DNA from: Pristionchus mayeri
Taxonomy: Eukaryota; Nematoda; Chromadorea; Rhabditida; Neodiplogasteridae
Length of the DNA stretch: 64,000 bases
Direction of reading: 5' to 3'
NCBI GenBank assembly: GCA_036245805.1
Contig: BTRK01000006.1
Coordinates: 744,001 to 808,000 of the forward strand
The translations under genes were made by a program, and so were the position numbers. Shown in pieces: positions 13,474 through 63,760 of the stretch. Positions within the stretch are counted from its first letter, which is position 1. Every line of letters starts with the position of its first letter. Below the pieces are notes generated by a model. It ran no database searches and was not told the origin of the DNA. It saw nothing but the letters and a program-made list of their open reading frames with translations.

Positions 13474-13717
13474 TGAGTTGTCAATAATCTGTTTATCATA
13501 TACGATTGGGTTTTTGTATATCATTATGAGCATTGTTTTTCTTCTTTATTTTGGCCATTTCGGCACTCATTCGTCAACGATCGACTGAGACGTCGATTGG
13601 CTGAAAGTTTGCATGATTATGAGCAATACAATATGTGCACCTTTGTAACGTTAAATGACAAAATATTCATTTTTCGAATTGCTAACTTTCAACCAAACTA
13701 TGTATTGTCACTGTCAT

Positions 13718-16700
13718 TCAAAATGTCACTGTCATTACCTCGGTGTTAGTTTGCTCGGACGGAGTCATCGGAGTCTTCGGGATCGAATTTTTCTTGTACG
13801 TTGGGGAATTTCGAGGAGAAGGAGTGCCTGCTTTCCTTTTGGTTTCGAAGCGCGAACGACGACGAATTCGTTTCTTTTTCTTCTTTGCAGCCAATTTCTC
13901 CATTATCCTGCAGATCAAAGCAATGTTAAAATGTGTGAAATTTGGGCTGTACCTTTACACAATTGCAATTTTTTAATGCAAAGGGATACATGAAGGGAGT
14001 GACTTCTAACAAAAAGCTAGAAAAATTGAAAGAAACTCACAATTGATGCGGCCAAACATGTGTGGTAACTCGAATCAAGATTGTGCCAATAATGATGACA
14101 ATCAGTATAAGAATCAGAGTGACGATGATAAATGATTGCCAGATTTTGGCATCCGCTTGATTTAGAGCCACTTTCTCTTCTGAAAAAAGTGAATATGTGT
14201 TGACCAAATAGAAAAGTGCTGACTTGTGCACATTGCTTGGAAATTGTAGCCCATAGTTTTATTATCGGTAGCAATGCTACCAGCCTTGCAGAACAGTTTA
14301 TTGACCCCTTTGAATTCGGTCCATTTTTCAGTATCACTGTTTCGGAACCTAGAAATAGTTTGTGAACAACAATAACAATTCAATAATTACCAAAAATTTC
14401 GCATTTTCTCGCAGTGAAAATACTTGACATTCTTGGCATTTCCTGTGCCCTCCATTTCTAGGAAATACTGAAAGTTATTGTGTTTTGCATTTTTTTCTAA
14501 TGAAAAGTACTTCATCACAATCTTCATTATTTTGCTCGGCGCACGACGGAAAAATTTTATCAAGGGAGCAGCCGCCTTCAATTTAAATAATATAATGTAA
14601 ATTTATAATTAGTATTTCCGCAAGGTACGCTTTAATCCCGCTTACCCCCATGACAGTATGCATTGCTTCCTTTGGGAACTATTACATCCACTCCGTCGTC
14701 ATGTCTTTTGGCTGTCCATTTCCCATCTATTTCACATTCAAGCTTTTTTATTTGAACCTGCGAAATTGTCAATTAAGATGTCTAGTTGTGTAACCTCAAT
14801 ACCGATGCTCCATTTTCATCATCATAAAACATCTTTTTACTGCATTCAAAAACATCGTTCGGCAACTGGGAAGTTTTCAATTTGATGCTATCCTCGAACG
14901 GGGTAAACCTGTTCACACGCTGTGTCGTTCTGGTTTCTGCATTTACTGTCCAAGGGATTCATTAATTTGCATACACCTTAAAATAGCATTTACAATGTTA
15001 CAATATTTTTAGTGGAAAAATAACTCACTTTCACATTGTAAACCATCTCCAGTGTCAAATTTGCCATCATATGAATCCCATCTTGTTATCTCCGCCTCTT
15101 TCGCAATGCACGTAAGAGAAGTGCCGTTTTTCTTTATTTTTCCATATTTCGTGGTATCGTTGTAGACTACTCTACTGTGAATCCCGCACTAAATTGCGAA
15201 ATTTTTTCTCCGTGTAAGCTCGTAAAACAAACGGTGAATGTGGCGCATTCATCATATTTCGTAGAATTCCAAAATCTGGCTGTCGAATTCGCATGACAAC
15301 TTGGGCAAGGATTCTCGCAAAAGGCACACTCTGAAATATATACGAAGGCATATCGAGTTTAGGTTAGGGGGGCAAGAAGTTCCTCGTCTTTTACTGGTGT
15401 GTTGGGTTAGAGGAAAAACATTAAAAGACTTCTTGCAGATCCGAGGATAATCGACATGTAATATCTTTTGTCTATTTTTCACGTACTTCTACGGATGCAT
15501 CTGATGTTCGTCGGTTGGATTCCATTCTCTCCAACTTTAGTCGTATTGTACTCGAATTTTTCCGCATCGCATTTAGCCCAATCAACATCGATCCAATTTC
15601 CGCTAATTTTCAATCTGAAAATTAGCATTTAAACTTGGCTAAGTATTGCAAAACTCACTGCAAAGAAGAACTAGGATCAGGACAGCTCAATAACGAACAG
15701 TTGGAAGGCTGAATTGTCGTTTTTTGAGATAAAAAATAGAAATGTTTATACTCACCTTATGGCAAACTTCGACATTTCCATCGCACAACGATCGATAGTA
15801 GAATTTGTTGATATTCTTTCGAATACATCGAAATCGGTTCGGGAAATTGTCATTAGCAGTGCTTCCTTCAACTTTGAAACGATAATTTTCGCAGATTACT
15901 TTAGGGGCATCGACCCATGGATCAGTAGCTCTGAACATCACAATGACACTGAGGAGTTGCACATTTTACTCACTTTTCACCGTACCTAACTTGCAATCGT
16001 TGCGTTGTCTCAGAGCACTTTAAGGAGTTATCGGATTCTAGTATCGGCTGCAAAATTAAAAACTCATTTAATAAAATATATAATAATATAACAAAATATA
16101 GCTCACATCTTCACATTCGTTTTCCTCTCCACAATCAGCGTAGGAGTACGCATCAATGTGACAACCATCATGGCAATAGACTGTGGTGTCTGATATTTGT
16201 ACTACTTTATCTTTAATGGTAGTCCTCCAAAAGCCATCATTGTTGTCGCAAAAAATGTCGTCAATCTAAATATTGATTGATAAACACAGAGGAGCAACAA
16301 AGCAACGAACATCTACCGATTCTAGCTGGTCGGTGTAGAAATATTTCTTCTTGCAGTCGTCTCTTGTATACTTCACAAAATCGTTCAAGATCACCTGATA
16401 CGAAAAAAAACAAATATTATTTAAAATGCAGTAGGTTAACCAGTGAACAATGAGCATCATTAGTATTGCATTCAGAGACAATTTTTGACTTCTTAGTGCA
16501 TAACACTGAAATTATATGTGATCGATTTATGACATTCCGTTTCTTTCCAGCTCTTGGCCTCTAGGTTTTATGAGAAATTCGTAATCGTAAGCGTAATAAT
16601 TATTGACTCACTGGCACAATTCATGTTCGCCTTAAAATCCGTATTTTCGGAAGTCCATGTAGCCACTTGATCTTCGACTGATTTGCATTCAAAATTTACA

Positions 16701-19700
16701 TCCGTCAGATGTTTTTCCTGATCCGACAGGATAGTAGTTTGAGTATCCTTACCACACTGAAACATCATAGAACAAATTTCTATTTTAGAGGGAACGTTTT
16801 TCAGCGTTAAGGGAAGCGGTCGACATGCCTCGTTTTAAAGCAATATTTGTAGAAAACTCGTAAAATATTGTTTCAATGAACTCAAATAATAAACTCACAC
16901 TGAAAGTCGAGCATTGGTCCCATTTTTTCGATTCGACGAAGCTATTCTTGAAATTTCCATCAGTTTTGCAGTTTGTACAAGGATTTGTGCAGAATGCGCA
17001 TTCTTCATGGAATTCATTATATTTACGTTTTTTTGGTTTAAACTCACTCTTTCGAATGCATCGTATTCCCGCAGGATTTGCTACATTTTTATCAGTTTTG
17101 CCATCCTTGTAGTAAAATTTGTCCGAGTTGCATCTGTCTATTTTCACGTGTTTCCAGTCTTCCATTGGCAATAGTTTCATTCTGTTAAATATTATTTTAA
17201 ATTAATTGAGATTATTTTGAATTAATTAAGATTGGACAGTCAGAAAGAAAGAAATACGAGACTCACTGCAGCTCCCAGTCTGATTTGCACACTGATGCAT
17301 CACATGTCGTTGCCTGAAAATGCATGTATTGATTCACCAATTTCATCCTTCTCACTTTGTCGCACGAAATGGGGTGTTTCGATTGGTAATCTTTGCAATC
17401 ATCCTTATCGAAGTATGCATCGATATTCTTGTGAATACACCTAATCTTGAGTATTACATCTTGCAAATTGTTATCATTCTTGAATATTTTGAACTTGTTG
17501 TCAACACACGATATGCTTTCAACATCCTTCCATTGTGAAGGGCTTCAAAAATTTGAATGGGATTTAAACTGCAAAACAATTCAGCTCACTTTTTTGTGGC
17601 GATTTCGGCTTGCAATCCAAATTCAGGTGAAGAACAAGCTACTTTAACTCCTGATAAATTAGGCTGAAATTATCCCATCAAAGCGTATTTTGTATACTGA
17701 GGAGATATGCGTCCCACCTGTTCGCATGCTTCCTTTTTACTGTCGCACTGCACAGGCTTGTAGTATTCTCCGATATCGCATCCGTCATGGCAAACAACTT
17801 TACTGTTGGGCGGCACATCTTTTATTTCCTTCGCAGACCAAGTTCCTTTGTCGAATTTGCACTCCAGATTAGATATTGCAATCTTGAAAAATTTATTTGT
17901 ATAGATTCGTAGAAAATGATTCAATTATCATGCTGACCAATTTGTCATTGTCGACATAGTGCAATTTTCTATTGTCTCCGCACGCAATCGGTTTTTCGTC
18001 TTTGAACGTGACCTGTTATTTAACAATATTAGCCAAGATTATCGCTGTTGAGACAATACTAGTATAACACAATATGGAATTTCTAAAAAAATGAATTCCA
18101 ACCGGTTTACAGTGCGTATCTCCTTTAGTACAACCGTTACTCAGAGTATTTTGAAGTGTACATAAATCTGAATTGCGCCGTTGCTTCCACTATCATTAAT
18201 CTCCAATATTAGGCGAAAACATTTTACACAATATCACACTATAGGCATGATTCATATCTCGTAGCTTAGAAGAATAAAAAATATATCTGTCGATACTAAA
18301 ATCAATACCTATATATAAAGCGCAGGTTCCGTCCGTGTGTCCGGATTGCGAAATAGGTAGGAGAGGGATGGATTACGTTAGGAAGGCATCGGTCCACTAC
18401 CGTATACCAATCAATAATTAGCATTTGGACAACTACAGTATACCAATCGATAATTTGCCATGGGTCACCTCTTATTCCGTGGGTCAGATTTATGATTTTG
18501 ACCTTTGATCTTTGAATTACAGTATACCAATCAATAATTAGCATTGGGTCAACTACCGTATACCAATCGATAATTAGCCATGGGTCATCTCTTATTCCGT
18601 GGGTCAGATTTATGATTTTTACCTTTGATCTTTGAATTACCGTATACCAATCAATAATTAGCATTGGGTCAACTACCGTATACCAATCGATAATTAGCCA
18701 TGGGTCATCTCTTATTCCGTGGGTCAGATTTATGATTTTTACCTTTGATCTTTGAATTACCGTATACCAATCAATAATTAGCATTGGGTCAACTGCCGTA
18801 TACCAATCGATAATTAGCCATGGGTCACCTCTTATTCCGTGGGTCAGATTTATGATTTTGACATTTGATCTTTGAATTACCGTATACCAATCGATAATTA
18901 GCATTGGGGCAACTACCGTATATCAATCGATAATCAGCCATGGGTCACCTCTTATTCCGTGGGTCAGATTTATGATTTTGATCTTTGATCTTTGAATTAC
19001 CGTATACCAATCAATAATTAGCATTGGGCAACTACCGTATATCAATCGATAATTAACTTTGGGTTACCTCTTATTCGGTGGGTCAGATTTATGATTTTGA
19101 TCTTTGATCTATGATCTAAACTATGCCAATACATAATTAACATTGGGACGACTACAGTATACCAATCGATAATTAGCTATGGGTCAAAGCTTCTAGAATG
19201 TTCCAGAAAGTTCGAAAATGATCCAAAGCTTCTAGAATGTTCCAGAAAGTTCGAAAATGATCCAAAGCTTCTAGAATGTTCCAGAAAGTTCGAAAATGAT
19301 CCAAAGCTTCTAGAATGTTCCAGAAAGTTCGAAAATGTTCCAAAGCTTCTAGAATGTTCCAGAAAGTTCGAAAATGATCCAAAGCTTCTAGAATGTTCCA
19401 GAAAGTTCGAAAATTTTCCAAAGCTTCTAGAATGTTCCAGAAAGTTCGAAACTTTTCTAAAGCTTCTAGCATGTTGATTCGAAAAAGAGAGGGGAGTAGG
19501 ATAGGAGAGGGGGGGAAGGAGAAAGGGAGAGTAGGAGAGAGGGGGAGAAAGGGAGAGGGAGAGGGAGAAAGAGAGAATGGAAAGGGAGAGAGGGAGAGAA
19601 GGAAAGAGGAGTGAGAGAAAGAGAGAGGGTAGTGGGAGAGAGGGAGAGGGAGAGGTGGAGAGAGAGAGATAGATAGAGGGAGAGGTGGATAGAGGGAGAG

Positions 19701-22700
19701 AGAGGTTGAGGGATAGAGAGATGGAGAGAGGGAGAGGTGGAGAAAGGGAGAGAGAATTTAGAGGGAGAGAGAGACGGAGAGGGGGAGAGGAAGAGAGAGG
19801 GAGAAAGGGAGAGAGGAAGAGAAGGGGAGAGATGGAGAGAAGGAGAGGAAGGGGGATAGGAATTGAGAGGGAGAGGTTAGAGGGTGAGGAAATTGGAGAG
19901 GGAGAGGTTAGAGGATGATAGAGTTGGAGAGGGAGAGGTTTGAGGGTGAGGGATTTGGAGATGTTAGAGGGAGAGGGAGTGAGATTGTTTGAGAGGGAGG
20001 GTTAGAGAGGGAGAGAGAGAGTTGGAGAAATAGGGAGAGGGAGATAATGAAAGAGAGGGATGGAGCGTGGGAGAGAGGGAGGGAGAAACGTTAATGGAGT
20101 ATGAGAGAGAGATTTTGCATCCGAAATAAATAAGACGAGGCTAAGAAGACATCCCGGAGAACGCCAGTCGATAGCGCGCGCCGAGGCGCGCGCTATCGGC
20201 TGGTTCTCCCTATAATATTCTTTGTACTCATACTTTATTCATCGATATGCTGTTACCCTACGTTAATTATTTGTCACTCGTTACATTCATGAGCGTAGGT
20301 GCACATAATCAGCTGCTTTCCAGGGACCCACTTTGGCATATCAAATCGTTCTTCGTTTTGATCACTGTCACTTCATCGTTCGCATTCCAAATGGCAGTTT
20401 CTGTAGTGTCTCCTTTCACGCTCACGCATGTTAGGCTAGATGGATTGATGTTTTTCGGAACGGAATTCGGATTGATAACAGCCCGAGTATTAGGACCACA
20501 CTGAAAAGATTGCATTTGTTGGGTGGCGTGAAGCCAGGTTAGTTTTAGTCGAGATCATAATGTTGTTGGCTTCTGAAGACAGATCAAGTTCAAGCTCTAG
20601 CTATTCGCGTCTCTTATGGTATATATCATCTGCATTCGCATGTGTCGTGCTCTCTTTCAATGTTATGCCTTCTTCTCCCGTGTACTTCCCTAACATAAAG
20701 TCGCTACTAGTCGACTAAAAATACGGTACGCTTGAGTAACTATGTTAGATATGCTAAGGATAGTTCAGCAGATGTAAAGTGGTGCTAAGTTTTCCTAGCT
20801 AGATAATCAATGTGTATTTTTTCGATATAGATTGTCTTAAATGTAACAACATAGTTTTTAAAATAATACGTTGAAGGTCGAGCATTGGTCCCATTTTGTC
20901 GATGCGACGAAACTGTTCTTGAACTTTTCATTATCCTTGCAATTTGTACAGGGAGATGTGCAGAATGCGCATTCTTAATGGAATGTATGATATTTGCATA
21001 TTACATTTCAACTCACTCTTTCGTATGCATCTTATTCCTTCAGGATTCGCTATATCTTTATTAGTTGTTCCTTCCTTGTAATAAAATTTGTCCGAATTGC
21101 ATATGGCTGATGTCACGTGTTTCCAGTCGTCCGTTGTCGATAGTTTAATTCTGTTAATTAATATTGAGAATTAATTAAAATTGATCGAACAGGAACGTAG
21201 AAATACAATACTCACTGTAACTCCCCGCCTGTTTTAGCGCACGATAACGCACCACATATTTCTGGCTTAAAATATTATGTATCCATCAAAATTGTTTATA
21301 ATTCTTACCGGTGTGCACGAAATTGGATATTTCGATTGGTAATCTTCGCAATCATCCTTATCGAAGAATGCATCGATATTCTTGTGAATACACCTAATCT
21401 TGAGTAGAATATCCTCCGGTATTTCTTTATTATTCTCGAAAATTCTAAATTTGTTGTCAACACACGAAATACGGTCAACATTCTTCCATTGTGCGGCACT
21501 TCTAAATTGGATATGCTATGTGACTTTCAGAACAATTTTAACTTACTCTTTTGTGACGATTTCGGCTTGCAATCCGAAATCTGGAGGAGAACAAGTTAGG
21601 TCATTTCCCCAGAAACTAGGCTGAAATTGTTTGATTCTCATACATTATTCTGTAAACTTTGATCTTCCTCCCACTTTTTCACATTTCTCCTTTTCATTGA
21701 CGCACTTCACAGGTTTGTAGTATTCTTCGATACTGCATCCGTCATGGCAAACAACTTTACTATTTGGAGGGAAATCTTTTATTTCCTTCGCAGACCATCT
21801 TCCGTTGACAAAATTGCACTCCAGATTAGATATTTCAATCTTAAAAACAATTTATAAACAATTGCAAAATGATTCAATTATTATTCTGACCAATTTGTCA
21901 TTGTCGACATAGTGTAATTTTCTATTGTAGTCACACTTGATCGGTCTTTCGTCGTTGAACGTTACCTGTTATATTGCATTACTGAATTAAGAGTTTGATA
22001 TTATTGCAATATAAAAGATGAATCGTGAAAATAAATCCAACCGGTTCACAATGCGTATCTCCCGGAATGCAACCGTTACTCAGTGCATTTTGAATAGTGC
22101 AAAAATCTGAATAGGGTCATAATTGTTTAACATTCGCATGAATCGAGTAAGTCATTCAGTATCATAGAACACTAGGATAATTATTCATCACTCATTAATT
22201 TTACGTGCGTAAATAAAATAAATATTCAATTCTAGAAACTCACTTTCACATTCCACATTCTTCTTCGTTTCGATCTCTGCCGTTTCATCGTTCAGCGTCC
22301 AGAATGTAGTTTCTCCTTCCACCCTCGCGCACGTTAGCATTGTATCATGGAATTTTCTATCATTGAAAACAGTCCGAGCGCCAGTACCACACTGAAAATA
22401 TAACTATATATACCAGAAGCATGTTCTAAGGCCAACCGAGAATGTAGAGGATTGGTTCCATTTGGTGGATTGTGAGAAAACAGATTTTATACATTTAGGA
22501 CAGGGATTTTCGCATTGAGTGTTTTCTAAAAAAATATAACGGAGACTTTATAATGAAAATGATTTTAAAATTGTGGCAAAACCGTACTCTGAATCGCACA
22601 TTTGAGTTTCACACTAGTGCCATTTTCACCGCCACTATCAACAATCTTCGTTCCGTCTATGAAATTGCCTTCGAATTTCCACGAGTCGCATCTTGCCGTG

Positions 22701-25700
22701 TCCACTTCATTCCAATCATCGTTGTCGCGTACCTTCATACTGCAATATTGCAGAGCTTATTCGACATGCATCACGAATTATAAATATAAATGCCAACGGG
22801 TAATCCATTCAGTTATGATACCGAAGGCAACCTCACATCAGCTTATAAGAATCAGTTCATCTTATTTTTGAGCAATCTCCGAGGGGCTGCAAATTTCCGA
22901 ATTTACAGCGAGTACTTCGAAATTTTAAAATTAATATTTAGTGTTTTTAGTTTTTAAGAATACTTATTAATATCCGAGTTTCTAATGATAATAAACATCA
23001 ACATTAACTGCTAACCTCAACACATATTTCATTCGTGTTTTCACATTGACTTTGAGCGGCAATTTGAGTGATGTTTATGCGAACGCATTGCATGGCGAGC
23101 ACGTAATTATCTTCCTTATCTTCCCTCGATAGCTTGCCTTTTTTGGGAACTGGTTCATAGCTGTACGATAATGCATCATCTTTATGTTTAGTGCAGTTAG
23201 CGTATTCAAATGTGTCGTTCCACGGAAGGCTAAAAAAATGCTACTATTCGATCATTAGCATGAATTACGCACACTTCATGGGGGGATTTGAGTCGTTGCA
23301 TCTTGATATGCATTCCATATCCGGGTTTGCATATTGCGTTCTGGTTTTTTTCATTATCAAGACGCGGCTGAAATCGGTCGATTGGAACGAGAGACAATTA
23401 ACATAAAAATAATATTTCAAAAGTTTACCGATACGCATTCAGTATGCGCTGGACATAAATTCGAGTAGTTATAGAAAATATCCAAACGACACTTCTTATC
23501 TTCATCTGGAACAAATATAATAATATATATGCTTGCATTACATAAATTACTGATTGTCATATGTTTGGGAATGCATTCCATCTTTGGGTCTGCGGAAAAG
23601 TGTATATATTTGTTGCCTTGCTTAGACACAAATCTTCCGGTAGTTTTATCGCATATTCTTTCATTTAACCATATTTCGTTGGCGCTGAACAAATATAATA
23701 AAGAATTCGATGCTCAGATATTATCGCTAATTTTCAATATTGATATCTTGTAATTATATTCTTTTGTAAAAAGCGAAGAATTGTATATGCAAATTTCCTC
23801 ACTAAAGGCTTCCGCTATAACAGTGATATTTTATTATATTAACGTTCGAATCGTCAATGTTAGGCTGTAAAGGTCCGGTATCACAGATTAAACATTATAA
23901 TATCTGAACCTTATAGCATTCTCGCCATTGATCTGTATTGAAGCACTCTTCAATCTTCAGATCTTCTTCGCTCGGGCACACTATAAATCACAAAAATTAC
24001 CATTTTCAAAAAAAAATTTAAAAAAAACAAAAATTACCAAACTTGTACGGAATGAGGTATAACATTGCAGCAGAGTATGTAAGAGAACAGGTTTCATTCC
24101 GTCAAAAATACTTGATAAAGTGTCGCCTAGGGTCAACGCATTTATTTACCTCTTAAAGAAGGAGTATCAGCAAAGTTAAGCTTTTGACGCTATCAAAACC
24201 ATGACCTAGCCCACCCTCCAAAGATAATAGCACTAGCTAGGAGTGTAGGCAACCATCGGTTGCTTAGCTCAGTGATAGAGTAGCCGCCATGTGATCTGGA
24301 AGTTGTGAATTTTATTCGTCTTCCGTTGCGCCGCCGAGCGTAGATAAAAAATATATAATTTGATTCCCACCAAATTTTTTTACAGATCTTCAAGATATTT
24401 GAATTCCCGCACTTCCCTGCTCTACAAGGCTCATTGGCATTCTTCAAACTAATGATAACTCACTTCAAAATAGAGATGAATGCGAAATTTTCAGAATCTT
24501 TTTTGGCTGTGCAAAGTGAGGTCATGGTTATGACAGCGTCAAAAGTGCAACTCTGCTGACACTCCTTCTTTAATATATACATATTGCATTGCCTATTCGT
24601 TAAAGCATACATAATCTTAAAACGATGTTTATTTAAGTACGTCAAATCTTGGAGGGGAGAAATCTTTCAAAATCATCGCTAAAAGCTTATACTAAATTTA
24701 ACGTTCAATCCAGCAAGCGCAATCCCGATAGGGATCTGCATGCGCAAAAAAGTGTTTTCCTCAAAATACTGCTAGTTCGATGCCTCTAGGATCCATATAT
24801 TTTTGGCAGCTTACGATTGAGTACTTAGAAAATTTTGGCATAGCTTTTCATGATCTTTCGAATGAGGTATCATACAACGCGTTGGTCAAATATCAAAAAA
24901 AATAATTTTCGAAAAAAGCGGTAACTGTAGTTCAATATTGTAAGACATGTATATTGTGCCCCTAATGAATGTACCCACCAAGTATGAACTTCGAGCGATG
25001 ATTCTTTAAAGATTTTGCTACCATTTACTGCACTCTTAGAGGCACTTTGGTTTACACCATAATTTGCATAATAATAACGTATCCATAAACGAAACCGATC
25101 GGTATTTATCTACCATAATGCAAGAGTAGTATCATTTGCAGTGAATTTTATTCTGGGCTACCCGTTCAGAAGGAAGTACTGTGCGAAGCAGAATACCAAC
25201 TCCGGTTGAGACTCGACAAATAGCTATGTATTTTGGTTTGCAAATCCCCGAAACCTACGCTTTTTCTTATTAGCTTTCGTGTTTGACGGCGAGGCTCCGT
25301 CTGCCATGAGCAGGTGTGCTCTGGCAGTCACCCGAATGTTTGATTTGGATGCGAATGTAAATTTTTTTGAGCTAAATGTTGTTTCATTTTCACACGTGTT
25401 TCGGAGTTTTCACTGTTCTTGATCGATTTACCAATATTATCAGATTTTTGAAAAACAACTTGTTGACATCATTAACTTAATTTTTTGGCATTGATCATTC
25501 AGGTCACAGTAATGACGACGCAGACAGATTACGACCCAGATCAGATGACGACCTCGACCAAGACAAAGAAACAGCATAGAGGATAGATAGATATTTTGGG
25601 CTGTTCGAATATCTTATTCATTTTCACTCCATTTTCTGTTTTTGATTGTATCACCTAAGAGTAATTCACCTTTCGGCAAGAAGCTTTGACTCGATGCTTC

Positions 25701-25745: not shown

Positions 25746-25836
25746 CTTAAACGAGAGGCAAAAGTGATGACGTCATCTTAATCAATAAAAGGTATGATGA
25801 CGTCATCTTAAACGAGAGGTAAAAGTGATGACGTCA
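25737..25836. promoter_or_regulatory. Four phased TGACGTCA (CRE/ATF-type) sites at the gene A start
   Basis: Perfect palindromic octamers begin at 25737, 25768, 25798 and 25829, spaced 31, 30 and 31 bp (about three helical turns). The first overlaps the gene A start codon (ATGACGTCA on the minus strand). The two pairs are themselves a tandem duplication of about 61 bp (CATCTTAAACGAGAGG...). TGACGTCA is the consensus for bZIP factors of the CREB/ATF type. Confidence 0.75.
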
Positions 25837-25859
25837 TCTTAATTCACGTTAAAATTTGG

Positions 25860-26080: not shown

Positions 26081-26363
26081 TAACTGAAACTGAAACAGGT
26101 CTCAGAGTTTTTTAATCAGTATCTTCATTTAGAGGTAGAGACAGTAGAGGCGAAGATCTGATAGTCCTCGTGTGATTGAATAATCCAACTGCGACGGGAT
26201 TCAATTCCCGATTTTGTAGCCAACCTTTACTGTTGGTAACCTTCGCATAGTTCAGTATTGAGCTACTCCGTAATTTCCTCACTGGCGTATGAATGAGATG
26301 GGGAAGGCGAACCACTGCGTCACTTTGGTTGTCCATCTCTCGTCAATTCATCATAGTTCATTG

Positions 26364-27504: not shown

Positions 27505-27855
27505 TATGTTTCACTTTCAGATCACTCTCGTGTCTTCTTTTGCACTTTCGAGAAGGTCTCACATAATTAATCAATTATCACGTAGCAAGTTCATCCAAAT
27601 GAGTCTTTGTCACCTCTCTCTCCTTCTCCTCCTCCATTTACTCTTCTTCTCCCCTCTCGCGTCGATCGGTGGCCGCTCTCCTAACAGGGGTATTTTTTGC
27701 TATTTTTGATCAATTTTCCAATATTTAAAACGAATTATGATAACGCCATCATTAACGAGAGGAGAAGTGACCTCTTCTTGCTTAGGATGACGTCATTATA
27801 TCTATTACTGTTTATAACGACATAACAATTTCTTCTCTCGTTTAAGATGACGTCA
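27505..27855 (+). promoter_or_regulatory. Gene B promoter block with TGACGTCA sites
   Basis: Contains the conserved block (CACATAATTAATCAATTATC, CGTCGATCGGTGGCC) and TGACGTCA at 27788 and 27848. The second overlaps the start codon ATGACGTCA. The 60-bp spacing equals two of the intervals seen in gene A. Confidence 0.7.
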
Positions 27856-30444
27856 TCACTTCTCCTGTTGCTATTGATGATTATCACGAGGGAAGCATCG
27901 ACTGAAGGAGCAGCCCTACTCTTTGCAGACGGGCCGCGTCCTCAAACACGGATGCTAATGAGAAAAACTGTATGTTTCGGGTAATTTACAAACCACCATA
28001 AATAACAAGCTATCCTCGAGTCGCTACCGATTTGGTTTCTCTGCTTTTGACAGTACAATCCGATCTGGTCCCCGCATGAAACATTGATATCCCGCGAGTC
28101 CCCGGATTTTCGTGGCTCGGACAGATAATGAACTAATTCACAACTTTTTTGTGGTATAATACTCTGACTCCGGAACCGGTGAATGAGAAGTTTTAACTAG
28201 GGTAGTGCAAATTGTCAGATTCAAAAATTTAAAAAAAGTTACGGTAAAGAAATGGATTATATGCACATAGTTTGAGTAGTTCTTTTGAGCCTCAAAACCC
28301 TAAATTTGGAATTAGTTTTTATCCGCAAACTTGTGGGGGGGGCACGGCTTACACAGTTTTCATGTAGGGATCTGGCCCATACTTGCTCTGCCGCGAAGTT
28401 GCCTGATGACGTGAGAAACACTACGTTTTGTGAATAAACACATCAGGAAACTCCGAATTTGAGGCATCTCTCCATCCGTTCAATACGAATATTTGCATCT
28501 ACCTTGTTAGCTGAAGGAATAATTCATGAACGGGAAATATAACCTTTTCATTTCGAGAAATCTTACGTGATACAGAGTCTCTCTATTTTTCTTATTTATC
28601 TACTACACACTGCCTCATAAGGCAAATAACGGGGAAATGGGAGCGAGTGTCCTTCAGGACAGCGCAATTTAACAGAAATTGAGGCCTAAATGTCATATAG
28701 CCAATAATAGCTAAAAAAATACACACAGTAAAACAAATTAGCATTTCGATGTGTGAGAAGAATCGTGAAACTCGTGGTGGGTAGAGTCTACAAAAAATCA
28801 GTATTCCTTCAGTCAGAAGCGTGGCATTTTGCGGCATAGTTATATAAATATTGATTGATCTTCGCTGTTTGTACGAGAATTCGTAATGCTTGTGTATTAT
28901 AGCGTGTCCGAGAGAAAAAGAGCTCGCGATTGAAAATTGCCTAACAACCATACATCGAGTATGCTACAAGGTTAAGAAATTAGTGTTTTATATAAGCTCT
29001 GATACATATTATTTGCAGCCCTTTATCGATGATTTGGGCAATAATAAAATAAGATATCGCTGTTATAGTGGAGTAACTTAGTAAGGAAATTTTTGATTCA
29101 CATGACTATGTTTGTAGTGATGATTATCTCAAATTCACGTACATGCGATGGGGAAAATACCCTCATCACTACAAATTATTAATACGTATATTAAGGAAAG
29201 GGAAATAAAATTGCTTGTTTTTCAGCGTCGACAATCAATATGTGCGTCAAGAAGAAATAATTTGCGATAAAGAAACAGGAATCACTTCTAAGCTTACGCG
29301 AAAAAATAAAGAAAAAATAATCGATGTAGCCACCCCTCCAGGCACAACCTTCCAATGTTATCCGCGATGTATGTCAAGATGTTTCTGTTAGCAAATATTA
29401 AATTTTTCTTTGAATTCATTCACCACAAAATCGTTTCAGCTATGAGTCAATGTCATTTGGAAAGAGTATTTCATTCAAATTTATGCCCAAAACATACAGA
29501 ATGTCAAGAGGTAAATTGTCAAATGATTAAATAGATAATTCTTCCAACAACTGCACTCCCAGTTGGTTTCAGCCGATTCTTGCCGATTCGTTTGCACGAT
29601 GCAATGACAAGTTAGAAATGCATATGCTGATTCAAAGACTCAACGCCAACAAACTGTATGCCATAAAATCAAATACACGGCTATTGTAATTTTTAGCATT
29701 CCATGGAGCGATATATATATAAACACGCTAAATGCTCGATACTCAGTTATATTAACAACGCACATTACTTCCAACCAGTTTCCAAACAAGGCAAGCCACT
29801 CGAAGAAGATGATTACGTGCTGGCAATGCGTTGCGTTCGCATAGATCTCAAACAAATATCAAGCAAGTCCTGTGATACCGATATGGAGGAATGTATCGAG
29901 GTAAGAAATTAACAGCTCTAGCCAGGTAATAAGTCAAGTTGGCTCCATATTAATTATCATTTTAAACTATTAATAAGCATCATTATCAATATTCCAAACA
30001 ATAAACTTATATAATTTGAATCTTTAAAATGTTAAGTGCTTGAAGGATTCGCTAAAAAATTCTTAAATTTCAGCCAATCGGAGACTGTTCAGAAATAAAA
30101 TGCCCTGATTCATATAAGCTGATGTGAGGTTACCTTATATCAGAGTTTATCATAGTTTACAAAATTTCATCGTGGGCATTTAGATTTGTTAAGATTCTTT
30201 GTCGTTTAAGCTCTACACTTTTGCAGTATGAAGGAGTCCGAAAACAGGGATTGGAATGAAGTGGCTTGGACTAAGTGCAAATTTGAATTTGAACTCAACT
30301 CTTGGAAATTCGACGGCAAATTCAAAGACGGAAAGAATATTATCAATAGCCTCGGTGCAAAAGGCGCTAGTGTGCAACTCCATTGTGTGAAAAGGAGTGC
30401 GTTTATATTACAATAAGAACAAATTTATCGAAAAAATATACATA

Positions 30445-30510
<66 letters not shown>

Positions 30511-33500
30511 TTAGAAAACACTCAATGCGCAGATCCTTGCTTGATTTCACAAGGTATCAGACGCTGTGAAAAATCTATTTTCACACCATCCACCAATTGG
30601 AACGAACCCTCTACATTCTCGGTTCGCTTTAGAACATGCTTCTGATATCCATAGTTATATTTTCAGTGTGGTACTGGCTCTCGGACTATTATCGGTACCA
30701 AAAAATTTGATGATGCAAGCCTAACGTGCGTGAAGGCAGACGAAGAAAGTACCTTGTGGGAAATGAAGATAAAAAATTTGGCAACCACTAGGATCGTCGA
30801 AACGATGAACGACGTGCAATGTGAAAGTGAGTTTCTCTTATTCATTATTTATTGTGTTTACGCTCGTGAAATTAATGAGTGACCAATAATTATCGTAGTG
30901 TTCGATGATACTGATCAATCAATCAATCAAGTTTATCACGTCAGGCGATTAACACCAGATTAGGAATAGGTCTATTCTTCGGCAGTTGCATGCCACCAGT
31001 TCGCGCCAAGGGATCTTCTTAGGTCATCTTTCCATCGCGCTCTAGGCTGTCCTTGGGGACGGGTCTTGTTGTAAGGGACCCAATCTGTAGATGCGCGGCT
31101 CCACTGGTCAAGTCCCATGCGTCCCAACTTCCGAGCCCACTTAGATGATACTGAATGACTTACTTAAATCATGCAAAGAATAAAAAACTTTGTCCCAATT
31201 AAGATTTATGCACACTTCAAAATACACTAAGGGACGGTTGTATTCAGGGAGATACGCACTGTGAACCGGTTGGATTTCATTTTATAAATTCCATATTGTG
31301 TTATACTAGTATAGTCTCAACAGCGACAATCTGGGCTAATATTATTTTATATCAGGTCGAGTTCAATGATAAAGACGTGATAAATTGCAAGAACGAAAAC
31401 AAGCAATTGTACTATTACTACAAGGGAAAAATGGTCAGAAAAAAATGTTTTTTTACAATTCAGGAAGAAAAAATTCAAGGTTGAAATATCTGATCTGAAG
31501 TGCAAATTGGAGACAGGCGCATGGACAGCGAACAATGCGCCGGAGGATATTAATTTAGGGGATGAAGTTTTTTGCCATGAAGGATGCAATATCGAGACAT
31601 ACTATCAGTCTGAACAGTGCCACAGTACAAGGGAGAAATGTGAAAAGGTGGGATTTAAATATATGTCTAAAATTGTAAAAAATGGAACAATTTCAGCCCA
31701 CTTTATCAGGAGACAAACTAGAATGTACTTCTGCAGAGTTTGGATTGCAAGTCGTGGCCAAAACAGAACAGTGCGGCGAAATATCTTGCTGTTAATATTG
31801 CATACATATTTTAGAAGTACACGAGAATGGAAGGATGTTGATGGTGTTTTGTGTGTTAACAATAAATTTGAAAATATGAACGAGTCAAACGACGTAATAC
31901 TCAAGATAAGGTGTATTCACAAGATCATCAAAGAATACTACAAGGATGGCGAAAGCGATCCCGAATTGTCGTTCATATCAGTGAGAGCAATTTTTAACAC
32001 GGTGATCTAGAAATTGAACTTTTAGCCAACGGATTGTTCTGCTCTGAAGTGTGAAGACTCGGATAAGAAATATTATTGGGCTCTACAGTGAGTCGTCAAT
32101 GTATCTTAAGAAATATGTAATCGACTGCAGAATAAATGATGACGGATGGAAAGACGTCACGTCAGCCAGATGCAATTCGGACAAATTTTATTACACGGAA
32201 GTTAGAAAGGTAGCTGATCCTGAGGGAATACGATGCAAACGAAAGAGTGAGTTGAAACCAGCAATGTAAGAATGACATGAATTCCATGAAGAATGTGCAT
32301 TCTGCAAAAATCCCTGTACAAACTGCAATGTCGATTTCGAGAATAGTTTCGTTGAATCGACAACAAAATGGGACCAATGCTCGACGTTCAACGTGATTAT
32401 TTTTTATTACGCTGTACTCTTGACATAAAACAGACTGTGTTCATGCTCTCCAGCAAAGGCAGAAAACCGGCTAAATTTTTGATTGGCTTTACTGAATCAA
32501 ACATCTAATTTATAAATTGTTTCAGTGTGGTCTTAATACTCGGGCTGTGATCAATCCGAATTCTGTCCCGAAAAACATCAATAAAGCAACCCTAACGTGT
32601 GCGAGGGAGGGAAAAGAAGCAACGGTGTGGAAAGATGGAGATATAGAGACATCACCGGAGAATGAAGTGAAGTGCGAATGTTAGTATCGACAGATGTATT
32701 ATATATGTTTCTCAGCTACGGGACATGAACCATCACCACATGGTGCTATTGTGTAAAATTATTTCTCCTAATATTCGATATTAATTGCGGATAGTATCAA
32801 TTACGACCCGATTCAGATTTGTGCACACTTAAAAATACACTGACGGACGGTTGTATTAAGGGTGATACACATTGTGAAAAGGTTAGATTTAATTTCATAT
32901 TTTGAACTTGGTATTATATTTTATAATCAAACCATTAGTAAGAGCTAATAATATACTTTTAAAGGTCGAGTTCAATGACGATACCGCCATTGAGTGCAAT
33001 GACATTAGTAAAGAAATGTACCTCGACAAGCTAGAAATGGTAAGAAAAAATGTACGAATCCCGTATTATTGTAATTCAATTTGCAGATTAAAATTCCTGA
33101 TCTCAAGTGCAATTTGACGACAGGAACTTGGACTTCGACAGGTTTTTCGAATGGCATTCATGGAGGCAGTGAAGTGTTCTGCCATGACGGATGCGATATC
33201 AACAAATATTATGAAGAATGCAGCAGTGATAAAGATATCTGCGTAAAGGTGGGCCGAATATAGACAAAACTATAATATCGAGTACTTTCAGCCTAATGAG
33301 CTAAACGGCAAATTAAGTTGTTCTGAAGAATTTGGACTGCAAGTCGAAGTTTTAACAAAAAAGTGAGGCAAAAAATACATTTTGAAATAAATTTCGCATT
33401 CGTATTTTAGTCTCAATGAGTGGAAGGATGTTAAAGAAGTTGTGTGTGATAACAACAAATATAAGCATACGAACGACATAAACGAAATAATTATCAACAT

Positions 33501-36500
33501 TAGGTGTATTCACAAGAACATCAAAGAATACTACAAGGATGGCGAAAGCGATCCCGAATTGTCGTTCATATCAGTGAGAGCATTTTTTCACACGGTGATC
33601 TAGATATTGAACTTTTAGCCTACGGATTGTTCTGATCTGAAGTGTGAAGATTCGAATAAGAAATATTATTGGGCTCTACAGTGAGTCGTCGATGTATCGT
33701 CATAAGAAATATGTAATCGACTGCAGAATAAATGATGGCGGTTGGAAAGACGTGACGTCAGCTAGATGCAATTCAGATAAATTTTATTACACGGAAGGCG
33801 GACCGGGAGTTAAAGAGGTAGCAGATCCTAAGGGAATACGATGCAAACGAAAGAGTGAGTTGAAACCAGCCATTTAAGAATAACATGAATTACATTAAGA
33901 ATGTGCATTCTGCAAAAATCCCTGTACAAACTGCAATGTCGATTTCAAGAATAGTTTCGTTGAATCGACAACAAAATGGGATCAATGCTCGACGTTCAAC
34001 GTGATTTTTTTATTACTCTCTACTATTGACATAAAACCGATTGTGTTCTTGTTATCCAGCAAACACAAAAAAATGCTAAATTGTCGATTTACTTTACTGA
34101 ATCAAACATCTAATTTATCAATTCTTTCAGTGTGGTGTTAATACTCGGGCTGTTATCAATCCGAATTCCGTTCCGAAAAACATCAATCCATCTAGCCTAA
34201 CATGCGTGAGCGTGAAAGGAGACACTACAGAAACTGCCATTTGGAATGCGAACGATGAAGTGACAGTGATCAAAACGAAGAACGATTTGATATGCCAAAG
34301 TGGGTCCCTGGAAAGCAGCTGATTATGTGCACCTACGCTCATGAATGTAACGAGTGACAAATAATTAACGTAGGGTAACAGCATATCGATGAATAAAGTA
34401 TGAGTACAAAGAATATTATAGGGAGAACCAGCCGATAGCGCGCGCCTCGGCGCGCGCTATCGACTGGCGTTCTCCGGGATGTCTTCTTAGCCTCGTCTTA
34501 TTTATTTCGGATGCAAAATCTCTCTCTCATACTCCATTAACGTTTCTCCCTCCCTCTCTCCCACGCTCCATCCCTCTCTTTCATTATCTCCCTCTCCCTA
34601 TTTCTCCAACTCTCTCTCTCCCTCTCTAACCCTCCCTCTCAAACAATCTCACTCCCTCTCCCTCTAACATCTCCAAATCCCTCACCCTCAAACCTCTCCC
34701 TCTCCAACTCTATCATCCTCTAACCTCTCCCTCTCCAATTTCCTCACCCTCTAACCTCTCCCTCTCAATTCCTATCCCCCTTCCTCTCCTTCTCTCCATC
34801 TCTCCCCTTCTCTTCCTCTCTCCCTTTCTCCCTCTCTCTCCCTCTCCCCCTCTCCGTCTCTCTCTCCCTCTAAATTCTCTCTCCCTTTCTCCACCTCTCC
34901 CTCTCTCCATCTCTCTATCCCTCAACCTCTCTCTCCCTCTATCCACCTCTCCCTCTATCTATCTCTCTCTCTCCACCTCTCCCTCTCCCTCTCTCCCACT
35001 ACCCTCTCTCTTTCTCTCACTCCTCTTTCCTTCTCTCCCTCTCTCCCTTTCCATTCTCTCTTTCTCCCTCTCCCTCTCCCTTTCTCCCCCTCTCTCCTAC
35101 TCTCCCTTTCTCCTTCCCCCCCTCTCCTATCCTACTCCCCTCTCTTTTTCGAATCAACATGCTAGAAGCTTTAGAAAAGTTTCGAACTTTCTGGAACATT
35201 CTAGAAGCTTTGGAAAATTTTCGAACTTTCTGGAACATTCTAGAAGCTTTGGATCATTTTCGAACTTTCTGGAACATTCTAGAAGCTTTGGAACATTTTC
35301 GAACTTTCTGGAACATTCTAGAAGCTTTGGATCATTTTCGAACTTTCTGGAACATTCTAGAAGCTTTGGATCATTTTCGAACTTTCTGGAACATTCTAGA
35401 AGCTTTGGAACATTTTCGAACTTTCTGGAACATTCTACAAGCTTTGGATCATTTTCGAACTTTCTGGAACATTCTAGAAGCTTTGGAACATTTTCGAACT
35501 TTCTGGAACATTCTAGAAGCTTTGGATCATTTTCGAACTTTCTGGAACATTCTAGAAGCTTTGGATCATTTTCGAACTTTCTGGAACATTCTAGAAGCTT
35601 TGGAACATTCTAGAAGCTTTGGATCATTTTCGAACTTTCTGGAACATTCTAGAAGCTTTGGATCATTTTCGAACTTTCTGGAACATTCTAGAAGCTTTGA
35701 CCCATAGCTAATTATCGATTGGTATACTGTAGTCGTCCCAATGTTAATTATGTATTGGCATAGTTTAGATCATAGATCAAAGATCAAAATCATAAATCTG
35801 ACCCACCGAATAAGAGGTAACCCAAAGTTAATTATCGATTGATATACGGTAGTTGCCCAATGCTAATTATTGATTGGTATACGGTAATTCAAAGATCAAA
35901 GATCAAAATCATAAATCTGACCCACGGAATAAGAGGTGACCCATGGCTGATTATCGATTGATATACGGTAGTTGCCCCAATGCTAATTATCGATTGGTAT
36001 ACGGTAATTCAAAGATCAAATGTCAAAATCATAAATCTGACCCACGGAATAAGAGGTGACCCATGGCTAATTATCGATTGGTATACGGTAGTTGCCCCAA
36101 TGCTAATTATCGATTGGTATACGGTAATTCAAAGATCAAATGTCAAAATCATAAATCTGACCCACGGAATAAGAGGTGACCCATGGCTAATTATCGATTG
36201 GTATACGGTAGTTGACCCAATGCTAATTATTGATTGGTATACGGTAATTCAAAGATCAAAGATCAAAATCATAAATCTGACCCACGGAATAAGAGGTGAC
36301 CCATGGCTGATTATCGATTGGTATACGGTAGTTGACCCAATGCTAATTATTGATTGGTATACGGTAATTCAAAGATCAAAGGTAAAAATCATAAATCTGA
36401 CCCACGGAATAAGAGATGACCCATGGCTAATTATCGATTGGTATACGGTAGTTGACCCAATGCTAATTATTGATTGGTATACGGTAATTCAAAGATCAAA

Positions 36501-39500
36501 GGTAAAAATCATAAATCTGACCCACGGAATAAGAGATGACCCATGGCTAATTATCGATTGGTATACGGTAGTTGACCCAATGCTAATTATTGATTGGTAT
36601 ACTGTAATTCAAAGATCAAAGGTCAAAATCATAAATCTGACCCACGGAATAAGAGGTGACCCATGGCTAATTATCGATTGGTATACTGTAGTTGTCCAAA
36701 TGCTAATTATTGATTGGTATACGGTAGTGGACCGATGCCTTCCTAACGTAATCCATCCCTCTCCTACCTATTTCGCAATCCGGACACACGGACGGAACCT
36801 GCGCTTTATATATAGGTATTGATTTTAGTATCGACAGATATATTTTTTATTCTTCTAAGCTACGAGATATGAATCATGCCTATAGTGTGATATTGTGTAA
36901 AATGTTTTCGCCTAATATTGGAGATTAATGATAGTGGAAGCAACGGCGCAATTCAGATTTATGTACACTTCAAAATACTCTGAGTAACGGTTGTACTAAA
37001 GGAGATACGCACTGTAAACCGGTTGGAATTCATTTTTTTAGAAATTCCATATTGTGTTATACTAGTATTGTCTCAACAGCGATAATCTTGGCTAATATTG
37101 TTAAATAACAGGTCACGTTCAAAGACGAAAAACCGATTGCGTGCGGAGACAATAGAAAATTGCACTATGTCGACAATGACAAATTGGTCAGCATGATAAT
37201 TGAATCATTTTCTACGAATCTATACAAATAAATTTTTCAAGATTGCAATATCTAATCTGGAGTGCAAATTCGACAAAGGAACTTGGTCTGCGAAGGAAAT
37301 AAAAGATGTGCCGCCCAACAGTAAAGTTGTTTGCCATGACGGATGCGATATCGGAGAATACTACAAGCCTGTGCAGTGCGACAGTAAAAAGGAAGCATGC
37401 GAACAGGTGGGACGCATATCTCCTCAGTATACAAAATACGCTTTGATGGGATAATTTCAGCCTAATTTATCAGGAGTTAAAGTAGCTTGTTCTTCACCTG
37501 AATTTGGATTGCAAGCCGAAATCGCCACAAAAAAGTGAGCTGAATTGTTTTGCAGTTTAAATCCCATTCAAATTTTTGAAGCCCTTCACAATGGAAGGAT
37601 GTTGAAAGCATATCGTGTGTTGACAACAAGTTCAAAATATTCAAGAATGATAACAATTTGCAAGATGTAATACTCAAGATTAGGTGTATTCACAAGAATA
37701 TCGATGCATACTTCGATAAGGATGATTGCAAAGATTACCAATCGAAACACCCCATTTCGTGCGACAAAGTGAGAAGGATGAAATTGGTGAATCAATACAT
37801 GCATTTTCAGGCAACGACATGTGATGCATCAGTGTGCAAATCAGACTGGGAGCTGCAGTGAGTCTCGTATTTCTTTCTTTCTGACTGTCCAATCTTAATT
37901 AATTCAAAATAATCTCAATTAATTTAAAATAATATTTAACAGAATGAAACTATTGCCAATGGAAGACTGGAAACACGTGAAAATAGACAGATGCAACTCG
38001 GACAAATTTTACTACAAGGATGGCAAAACTGATAAAAATGTAGCAAATCCTGCGGGAATACGATGCATTCGAAAGAGTGAGTTTAAACCAAAAAAACGTA
38101 AATATAATGAATTCCATGAAGAATGCGCATTCTGCACAAATCCTTGTACAAACTGCAAAACTGATGGAAATTTCAAGAATAGCTTCGTCGAATCGAAAAA
38201 ATGGGACCAATGCTCGACTTTCAGTGTGAGTTTATTATTTGAGTTCATTGAAACAATATTTTACGAGTTTTCTACAAATATTGCTTTAAAACGAGGCATG
38301 TCGACCGCTTCCCTTAACGCTGAAAAACGTTCCCTCTAAAATAGAAATTTGTTCTATGATGTTTCAGTGTGGTAAGGATACTCAAACTACTATCCTGTCG
38401 GATCAGGAAAAACATCTGACGGATGTAAATTTTGAATGCAAATCAGTCGAAGATCAAGTGGCTACATGGACTTCCGAAAATACGGATTTTAAGGCGAACA
38501 TGAATTGTGCCAGTGAGTCAATAATTATTACGCTTACGATTACGAATTTCTCATAAAACCTAGAGGCCAAGAGCTGGAAAGAAACGGAATGTCATAAATC
38601 GATCACATATAATTTCAGTGTTATGCACTAAGAAGTCAAAAATTGTCTCTGAATGCAATACTAATGATGCTCATTGTTCACTGGTTAACCTACTGCATTT
38701 TAAATAATATTTGTTTTTTTTCGTATCAGGTGATCTTGAACGATTTTGTGAAGTATACAAGAGACGACTGCAAGAAGAAATATTTCTACACCGACCAGCT
38801 AGAATCGGTAGATGTTCGTTGCTTTGTTGCTCCTCTGTGTTTATCAATCAATATTTAGATTGACGACATTTTTTGCGACAACAATGATGGCTTTTGGAGG
38901 ACTACCATTAAAGATAAAGTAGTACAAATATCAGACACCACAGTCTATTGCCATGATGGTTGTCACATTGATGCGTACTCCTACGCTGATTGTGGAGAGG
39001 AAAACGAATGTGAAGATGTGAGCTATATTTTGTTATATTATTATATATTTTATTAAATGAGTTTTTAATTTTGCAGCCGATACTAGAATCCGATAACTCC
39101 TTAAAGTGCTCTGAGACAACGCAACGATTGCAAGTTAGGTACGGTGAAAAGTGAGTAAAATGTGCAACTCCTCAGTGTCATTGTGATGTTCAGAGCTACT
39201 GATCCATGGGTCGATGCCCCTAAAGTAATCTGCGAAAATTATCGTTTCAAAGTTGAAGGAAGCACTGCTAATGACAATTTCCCGAACCGATTTCGATGTA
39301 TTCGAAAGAATATCAACAAATTCTACTATCGATCGTTGTGCGATGGAAATGTCGAAGTTTGCCATAAGGTGAGTATAAACATTTCTATTTTTTATCTCAA
39401 AAAACGACAATTCAGCCTTCCAACTGTTCGTTATTGAGCTGTCCTGATCCTAGTTCTTCTTTGCAGTGAGTTTTGCAATACTTAGCCAAGTTTAAATGCT

Positions 39501-41410
39501 AATTTTCAGATTGAAAATTAGCGGAAATTGGATCGATGTTGATTGGGCTAAATGCGATGCGGAAAAATTCGAGTACAATACGACTAAAGTTGGAGAGAAT
39601 GGAATCCAACCGACGAACATCAGATGCATCCGTAGAAGTACGTGAAAAATAGACAAAAGATATTACATGTCGATTATCCTCGGATCTGCAAGAAGTCTTT
39701 TAATGTTTTTCCTCTAACCCAACACACCAGTAAAAGACGAGGAACTTCTTGCCCCCCTAACCTAAACTCGATATGCCTTCGTATATATTTCAGAGTGTGC
39801 CTTTTGCGAGAATCCTTGCCCAAGTTGTCATGCGAATTCGACAGCCAGATTTTGGAATTCTACGAAATATGATGAATGCGCCACATTCACCGTTTGTTTT
39901 ACGAGCTTACACGGAGAAAAAATTTCGCAATTTAGTGCGGGATTCACAGTAGAGTAGTCTACAACGATACCACGAAATATGGAAAAATAAAGAAAAACGG
40001 CACTTCTCTTACGTGCATTGCGAAAGAGGCGGAGATAACAAGATGGGATTCATATGATGGCAAATTTGACACTGGAGATGGTTTACAATGTGAAAGTGAG
40101 TTATTTTTCCACTAAAAATATTGTAACATTGTAAATGCTATTTTAAGGTGTATGCAAATTAATGAATCCCTTGGACAGTAAATGCAGAAACCAGAACGAC
40201 ACAGCGTGTGAACAGGTTTACCCCGTTCGAGGATAGCATCAAATTGAAAACTTCCCAGTTGCCGAACGATGTTTTTGAATGCAGTAAAAAGATGTTTTGT
40301 GATGATGCAAATGGAGCGTCGGTATTGAGTTTACACAACTAGACATATTAATTGACATTTTCGCAGGTTCAAATAAAAAGGCTTGACCGCTATAAAAACG
40401 GGACATGGACAGCCAAAAGACATGACGACGGAGTGGACGTAATAGTTCCCAAAGGAAGCAATGTATACTGTCATGGGGGTAAGCGGGATTAAAGCATAAC
40501 TTGCGGAAATACTAATTATAAATTTACATTATATTATTTAAATTGAAGGCGGCTGCTCCCTTGATAAAATTTTTCCTTCGTGCGCCGAGCAAAAAAATGA
40601 AGATTGCGATGAAGTAAGACTTTTCTTTTAAAAAAAAAATACAAAAATACAATATCTTTCAGTATTTCTTGGAAATGGAGGGCACAGGAAATGCCAAGAA
40701 TGTCAAGTATTTTCACTGCGAAAAAATGCGAAATTTTTGGTAAATTTTGAATAATTATTTTGTTTACAATTATATTTCCAGGTTCCGAAACAGTGATACT
40801 GAAAAATGGACCGAATTCAAAGGCGTCAATAAACTTTTCTGCAAGGCTGGTAGCATTGCTACCGATAATAAAACTATGGGCTACAATTTCCAAGCGATGT
40901 GCACAAGTCAGCACTTTTCTATCAAGTCAACACATATTCACACTTTCAGAAGAAAAAGTGGCTCTAAATCAAGCGGATCCCAAAATCTGGCAGTCATTTC
41001 TCATCGTCACTCTGATTCTTATACTGATTGTCATCATTATTGGCACAATCTTGATTCGAGTTACCACACATGTTTGGCCGCATCAATTGTGAGTTTCTTT
41101 CAATTTGCATAGCTTTTTTTAGAATTCACTCCCTTCATGTATCCCTTTGCATTAAAAAATTGCAATTGTGTAAGGGTACAGTCCAAATTTCACACGTTTT
41201 AACATTGCTTTGATCTGCAGGATAATGGAAAAATTGGCTGCAAAGAAGAAGAAGAAACGAATTTGTCGTCGTTCGCGCTTCGAAACCAAAAGGAAAGCAG
41301 GCACTCCTTCTCCTCGAAATTCCCCAACGTACAAGAAATATTCGATCCCGAAGACTCCGATGACTCCGTCCGAGCAAACTAACACCGAGGTAATGACAGT
41401 GACATTTTGA
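27847..41410 (+). CDS. Gene B: modular Cys-rich type I membrane protein
   Basis: About 54 exons, roughly 1,800 residues. The signal peptide is MTSSLLLLLLMIITREAS. Compared with gene A, intron 1 has shrunk to an in-frame remnant (...CTCTTTGCAG). The repeated module appears about six times. Its C(Y/H)xxC landmark is at about 29370, 31586, 33170, 37335, 38955 and 40480. Its CAFCxxPC-type exon is at 30515, 32294, 33899, 38120 and 39794. Typical exons: 31204-31268, 31356-31433, 31480-31647, and the transmembrane exon 40950-41088 (FLIVTLILILIVIIIGTILI). The final exon 41221-41410 encodes a KKKKKR tail ending EVMTVTF. The intron between 34310 and 36953 holds the Helitron-like element. A frame shift near 40216 is bridged only by a possible 16-nt intron. 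No known domain is recognised. Each module keeps paired Cys and a Trp, suggesting a small disulphide fold. Confidence 0.82.
30453..30508. repeat. (TA)n microsatellite
   Basis: About 28 TA repeats in a gene B intron. Confidence 0.95.
30915..31150 (-). mobile_element. 3' end of an RTE-type LINE in a gene B intron
   Basis: The minus strand reads SKWARKLGRMGLDQW, then TRPQGQPRARWKDDLRRSLG and ANWWHATAEE. This is the usual C-terminal tail of RTE reverse-transcriptase proteins (G.P..RW.DD....G..W...A). It is followed by a short TTGA-type tandem tail (TTGATTGATTGATTGA), also typical of RTE. Heavily 5' truncated and nonfunctional. Confidence 0.8.
34520..35150. repeat. Polypyrimidine (CT-rich) tract, right arm
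   Basis: Mirror of the GA-rich tract at 19480-20120. Confidence 0.95.
35162..35697. promoter_or_regulatory. Array of heat-shock elements (about 13 x 39 bp), right arm
   Basis: Same unit as at 19186-19470 on the other strand (TTCTGGAACATTCTAGAAG core), in about twice as many copies. One unit is partly deleted near 35600. Confidence 0.85.
35703..36730. repeat. 120-bp minisatellite in right Helitron-like element
   Basis: About 8.5 units of the repeat found at 18390-19185, two more than on the left. Confidence 0.95.
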
Positions 41411-41665
41411 ATGACAATGACAAATGGCAATGACAATACATAGTTTGGTTGATAGTTAGGAATTCGAAAAATGAATATTTTGTCATTTAACGTTACAAAG
41501 GTGCATATATTTTATTGCTCATAGTAATGAAAGCATTCAGTCCATCGACGTCTCAGTCGATCGTTGACGAATGAGTGCCGAAATGGCCAAAATAAAGAAG
41601 AAAAACAATGCTCATAATGATATACAAAAACCCAATCGTATATGATAAACATATTATTGACAACA

Positions 41666-53030: not shown

Positions 53031-63760
<10,730 letters not shown>

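Follow-up and report, generated by a model that had tools for sequence, protein, structure and literature searches.

The window analysed here is a 64,000-nucleotide stretch of the genome of the nematode Pristionchus mayeri (Neodiplogasteridae; C6:744001-808000), in which two related genes, here called A and B, are predicted to lie head to head on the arms of a large palindrome, with a third, incomplete copy, C, beyond them. Gene models were obtained with an in-house dynamic programme that scores splice sites and codons, was trained on exons within the window and used DNA only. The principal features, in window coordinates, are as follows.

Gene A: 13718..25745, minus strand; in-house splice model with N-terminal exons at about 23.7-22.2 kb and the transmembrane (TM) segment near 14.1 kb.
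Gene B: 27850..41410, plus strand; in-house splice model with N-terminal exons at about 29.2-30.8 kb and the TM segment at about 41.0 kb.
Copy C: about 45545-47841, plus strand; 5′-truncated, with last module, TM segment and tail, downstream of B and co-directional with it.
Left arm of the palindrome: 13477..20512; its core, 14826-20512, is nearly the same as the right arm.
Right arm of the palindrome: 34119..41664; core about 34119-40298.
Segment of gene B containing two inner module copies: 31815..34299, plus strand; direct repeats 31825-32582 and 33418-34187, 88.5% identical.
Intronic minisatellites of gene A: 18398..19475; a 120-bp unit repeated 6.6 times and a 39-bp unit repeated 7.5 times.
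Intronic minisatellites of gene B, with the same units as in A: 35156..36726; the 39-bp unit repeated 11.6 times and the 120-bp unit 8.6 times.

The two genes run outward from start codons 2105 bp apart (ATG at 25745 on the minus strand and at 27850 on the plus strand), in agreement with the divergent arrangement and the spacing of about 2.1 kb given in an earlier reading of this DNA, referred to below as the original prediction. Their 5′ flanks are identical at 277 of 348 positions, and both proteins would start with MTSS followed by a hydrophobic run that resembles a signal peptide. The signal peptide, single TM helix and KKKKKR tail expected for each gene were found in the splice models of both; the helix has a mean hydropathy of ∼3.5 over 19 residues and is followed by WPHQ and then by the tail, whose frame reaches a stop at 13718 in A, 41410 in B and 47841 in C (the tail exon is 41221-41410 in B and ends at 13718 in A). 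The short polybasic tail motif reads WPHQ...EK...KKK, and the TM segment, WPHQ and a basic run are retained in copy C and in one paralog on contig C3, the model of which ends in KKKRK. Judged by hydropathy and the reading frames of the models, the layout is that of a type I membrane receptor or adhesion protein, with a signal peptide, a Cys-rich ectodomain, a single TM segment and a tail.

The ectodomain consists of tandem modules of about nine short exons each. The first exon has the pattern CxxCxxPCxxC...C and the second CG...LTC...W...C; two short exons with Cys follow, then one with LxC...GxW...VxCHxGC, and finally two units of two exons each. The final units are mutually related, with common Cys, Trp, LQ and RC positions, and in an alignment of ten such units C10, W29, C37 and C60 are invariant. 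Among the models of ten stretches from clusters of the family, exons of at least 72 amino acids were of one kind only. Tandem multi-exon Cys-rich modules had been correctly recognised at the outset, but not their number: instead of about six per gene, the models show four full modules in B and three in A, each with partial N- and C-terminal ones in addition. The third, broken copy that had been noted corresponds to copy C, which lacks the 5′ part.

No named domain had been recognised in the module, and sequence searches of Pfam and PDB likewise yielded none. With Pfam, nothing exceeded the cut-off in five family pieces, three paralog models and 28 single units, the lowest E-values among the single units being 0.0074 and 0.0083, in one member each. 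The best E-value against PDB sequences was 0.35 for one module, and three unit profiles gave 1.2, 0.25 and no match. A match to AVR-Pik (E 0.35 in PDB; E 0.0074 in Pfam, in one of ten units) is weak and was regarded as chance. Two family queries found no homologue in a set of 5.8 billion proteins; since a control, the caveolin encoded in the window, which has a clear Pfam match, likewise found none, this set gives no conclusion on taxonomic spread. In the open-licence PMC literature, where the family has no name usable as a search term, no publication on it was found. By the Pfam and PDB sequence tests made here, the module is undescribed.

The inverted repeat was recovered by self-BLAST, in which 13477-19186 pairs with 41664-35937 at 97.7% identity and 19185-20512 with 35446-34119 at 99.5%. 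The copies had been described as mirror images; the arms are indeed inverted, but they form a mosaic. In a global alignment of the arms, 85 of 1347 aligned columns are mismatched in the outer part (13477-14825; 6.3%) and 7 of 5687 in the 5.7-kb core (14826-20512; 0.12%). Identity changes in a step at 14825, and the inner end of the core, at 20512/34119, is equally sharp; the 493 gap columns of the core lie within 18750-19249, inside two intronic minisatellites. At the outer-arm sites where A and B differ, copy C agrees with A at 33, with B at 38 and with neither at 12 (a wider count of 58, 46 and 28 included 49 sites beyond the arm). Since the differences are split in this way, A and B have drifted independently in the outer arm, and a role there for copy C as donor of sequence to either of them is rejected. 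Independent outer drift beside an almost identical core points to gene conversion, and a recent conversion of the membrane-proximal half between the arms would be the simplest cause. Consistent with a palindrome of this kind, the assembly holds large inverted arms on one chromosome, of which one part, with sharp ends, is far more alike than its neighbours.

The family was then sought in the whole genome (73 contigs, 290,818,952 bases). A 481-amino-acid probe gave 105 matches at E≤10, and those at E≤1e-3, which are exon-by-exon and thus lower bounds, were grouped by us into eight clusters on four large contigs.

Clusters on C6: the window; 822-829 kb; 6.72-6.74 Mb.
Clusters on C4 and C2: C4 43.11 Mb; C2 2.88 Mb; C2 26.79 Mb.
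Clusters on C3: 31.70-31.76 Mb; 37.29-37.39 Mb.

C1 and C5 had a single probe match each, at E >3. The idea of a multi-copy family is therefore supported within one nematode genome by these eight clusters. A second palindrome, C6:6718805-6726557 / 6742233-6734483, has 7.75-kb arms that are 99.845% identical by BLAST and carries outward-reading family exons on each arm; an alignment shows six mismatches in the arms themselves and a further four where the inverted similarity runs on inward for 300 bp. An inverted pair on C3 (31712762-31713610 / 31714984-31714136) is 849 bp long and 100% identical, and both models there include family exons. Other, shorter inverted pairs occur in the cluster stretches, for example 512 bp at C2:26.78 Mb and 804 bp at C3:37.39 Mb. 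A 1054-bp pair at C6:816.7-830.4 kb was excluded as a family palindrome because it contains a frame that we take to be transposase-like.

Two repeats of the window also recur beside family genes. The 120-bp minisatellite (18398-19186 and 35698-36726) has near-identical arrays on C1 to C6, with at least 183 matches (a lower bound, 40 of 433 candidates having been scored), and stands directly 3′ of the C4 family gene as well; it looks to have spread recently. A foldback element at 55177-56262, with halves ∼92% alike, has a 96% identical copy at C3:37307578-37308666, which adjoins a family gene model.

Selection on the 3′ part was assessed by the Nei-Gojobori method on blocks from the last module, the TM-proximal region and the TM segment; three of the 14 blocks (X1, Y2 and tail) were omitted because the supplied frame contained a stop, and in the comparison with C4 a further block scored under the limit. 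Between A and B the ratio of nonsynonymous to synonymous substitution rates (dN/dS) was 0.27 over 386 codons, with 0.24 in the outer blocks (150 codons, dS 0.129) and one synonymous difference in the non-outer blocks counted. Ratios of 0.44 and 0.47 were obtained for B and A, respectively, against copy C (356 codons each), and 0.35 for B against C4 (311 codons). The 3′ part is thus under purifying selection and largely homogenised. For the N-terminal part, six exon pieces of A and B were compared, leaving aside, among others, exon 1 and the beginning of exon 5. There, 99 of 229 residues are identical (43%), dS is 0.69 and dN 0.46, giving a ratio of 0.66, with dS near saturation in some exons. 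Piece by piece the ratios are 0.35, 0.26, 1.77, 0.34, 0.89 and 1.15. The two values above 1 come from pieces of 47 and 27 codons, in which few synonymous changes (8.7 and 5) were counted. Constraint is weaker in the N-terminal exons than in the 3′ part, as would also be expected if selection had relaxed on copies that are partly broken.

Taken together, these data are best explained, with a probability of about 0.7, by a head-to-head inverted duplication within an undescribed multi-copy family of modular type I membrane proteins, subject to birth-and-death evolution and palindromic conversion. One family member would have been duplicated head to head in inverted orientation to produce A and B, and conversion through pairing of the inverted arms would have left the membrane-proximal modules almost identical. 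The distal N-terminal half would meanwhile diverge, module number come to differ between A and B, and copy C be truncated. The products may be surface-displayed recognition or adhesion proteins in which the distal part varies and the proximal part and tail are held; the distal modules might bind a partner and the basic tail might anchor or signal. The A/B pair itself would stand at the edge of pseudogenisation, as one phase of birth-and-death evolution. The evolutionary mechanism is of an ordinary kind, and the combination of module duplication, palindromic duplication and decay at one locus, as originally predicted, is supported. Several points weigh against this explanation: the exon models and the two lesions described below depend on DNA and in-house splice scoring; conversion is deduced from the identity steps, which might also reflect a recent further duplication confined to the core or a switch in the assembly; and the proposed function is read from architecture.

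The integrity of both copies is doubtful, given two apparent lesions near the N terminus.

TGA nonsense codon in frame in gene A: 22857..22859, minus strand; the corresponding codon in B, at 30101, is TGC.
Exon 5 of gene B, 2 bp longer than in A: 29698..29900, plus strand; the excess lies in a TA-rich stretch directly after 29701.

The 2-bp excess would probably shift the frame of B relative to A unless splicing differs, the local A/B alignment being weak. These lesions, the truncation of copy C and the loss from the last module of B of one Cys that A and C keep would all fit a reading in which A and B are both pseudogenes, the palindrome arose incidentally through ordinary inverted duplication and intact members lie elsewhere. 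This is possible, though clearly less probable than the explanation given above, since downstream exons are open across most of A and B with constrained dN/dS, the TM and tail frame is kept in A, B and C, and alternative splicing or an alternative start could bypass each lesion.

The original prediction saw here a fast-evolving family of the kind that faces pathogens, mates or environment, and this part stays a conjecture: the 3′ ratios are 0.24-0.47, and the N-terminal ratio of 0.66 is explicable by relaxed constraint. A conflict-driven receptor family, in which the diverged N-terminal half would engage partners that change fast (pathogen, prey or kin, mate) and the palindrome would generate diversity with the proximal half constant, would account for the low identity of the N-terminal exons beside a homogenised core, for the two exons with dN/dS of 1.15 and 1.77, and for the second palindrome and short inverted pair of the family. 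Nevertheless, pooled dN/dS is below 1 in all comparisons made, the two higher ratios come from the few codons and synonymous changes given above, and a nonsense codon in A and a probable frameshift in B, both near the N terminus, argue against a simple arms race. Conflict-driven diversification is accordingly possible but unproven, and as an account of the locus it is unlikely. Somewhat more doubtful still is a general device in which an unnamed family of nematode surface receptors would use head-to-head palindromes to separate constant from variable parts, conversion holding the proximal modules identical and the distal modules and module number diversifying so that rivals, kin, mates or microbes can be recognised; its basis is two family palindromes and one short inverted pair in a single genome.

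It is improbable that the module contains a very divergent C6 domain (PF01681), an ectodomain of nematodes that Pfam already lists. In one unit the order CxxC...C....CG...LTC...W...C is reminiscent of C6 domains, and this order was then seen in the C6 copies of the genome, which has 73 C6 matches at E≤1. However, among the matches listed none is at a family cluster, no C6 match above the Pfam cut-off was obtained when family pieces, paralogs and single units were scanned, and profile-profile comparison with hhalign gave a probability of 0.77% and an E-value of 0.072 over 18 columns, from shallow alignments of 19 and 7 sequences. On these grounds, the membership suggested by the Cys pattern is not supported. 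Least probable is a palindrome made by joining two alleles or haplotypes, the outcome named at the start as one that would undo the finding: haplotype switching could yield near-identical cores beside diverged flanks, but the two arms differ in their inner parts, in minisatellite copy number and in the count of modules, and allelic misassembly is judged unlikely because the near-identical core (5.7 kb on the left, ∼6.2 kb on the right) is shorter than the 10-kb minimum read and males are rare. The published RS5460 genome is described as six chromosomes of 290.8 Mb with a scaffold N50 of 48.8 Mb, assembled with Canu from PacBio HiFi reads of at least 10 kb plus Hi-C, from a selfing strain with <1% males at 20 degrees (PMC11544036). 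The palindromic structure is very likely real.

Around the two starts a recurrent motif was found.

Four TGACGTCA motifs at the start of gene A: 25737..25836, minus strand; the start codon lies inside ATGACGTCATC (Met-Thr-Ser-Ser).
Two TGACGTCA motifs at the start of gene B: 27788..27855, plus strand; the start is also Met-Thr-Ser-Ser.

The motif TGACGTCA, presumably CRE-like, occurs 12 times in the window versus 0.9 times on average over 30 Markov sequences, and AAGATGACGTCATC has 97 + 94 matches in the genome (some sites on both strands) versus 1 for a reversed control. Both look like a widespread promoter or start element. A candidate signal peptide that starts with MTSS at a TGACGTCA site was also seen at C2:2873889, ∼2.5 kb upstream of the first C2 model. 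The neighbouring genes in the window are the following.

G-protein alpha-like gene: 1388-2757, plus strand; recognised by eye.
Caveolin gene: about 6058-4369, minus strand; PF01146, E 5e-27.
Papain-type protease gene with I29 propeptide: 63679-62235, minus strand; PF00112.

If expressed, the family would contribute a so far uncatalogued extracellular module to the surface biology of nematodes, in a genus where predation and kin recognition are studied, and would offer a natural case of regional palindromic conversion dividing a receptor into a homogenised proximal half and a distal half left free. Should A and B be dead, the locus would still illustrate birth-and-death evolution and palindromic conversion clearly, though as an ordinary example. 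Live or dead, gene-family counts here should regard both cores as partly one sequence.

Among known systems, nematode C6 domain proteins (PF01681) occur in the same genome and share Cys-rich units ending in LTC...W...C, but the family pieces have neither a Pfam hit nor a significant profile match. Clustered protocadherins are described as undergoing regional gene conversion among paralogs (PMC1852091), and the regional homogenisation of related adhesion-type paralogs is similar here; theirs are tandem cadherin clusters, however, whereas the present case has two inverted copies and modules without a known-domain match. In C. elegans, gene-conversion tracts from 7829 pairs are reported to have a mean length of 117 bp and a range of 12-2958 bp, and adjacent inverted duplicates in Caenorhabditis, such as the hsp16-48 inverted repeat, exchange sequence (PMC3966223); here the near-identical stretch is 5.7 kb long, possibly the result of several events. 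Finally, palindromes of the Y chromosome, bdelloids and Folsomia, as reported, likewise have inverted arms able to exchange by conversion (PMC7953838), but the present palindrome has one gene per arm, arms of 7-8 kb, and a host worm with both males and selfing hermaphrodites.

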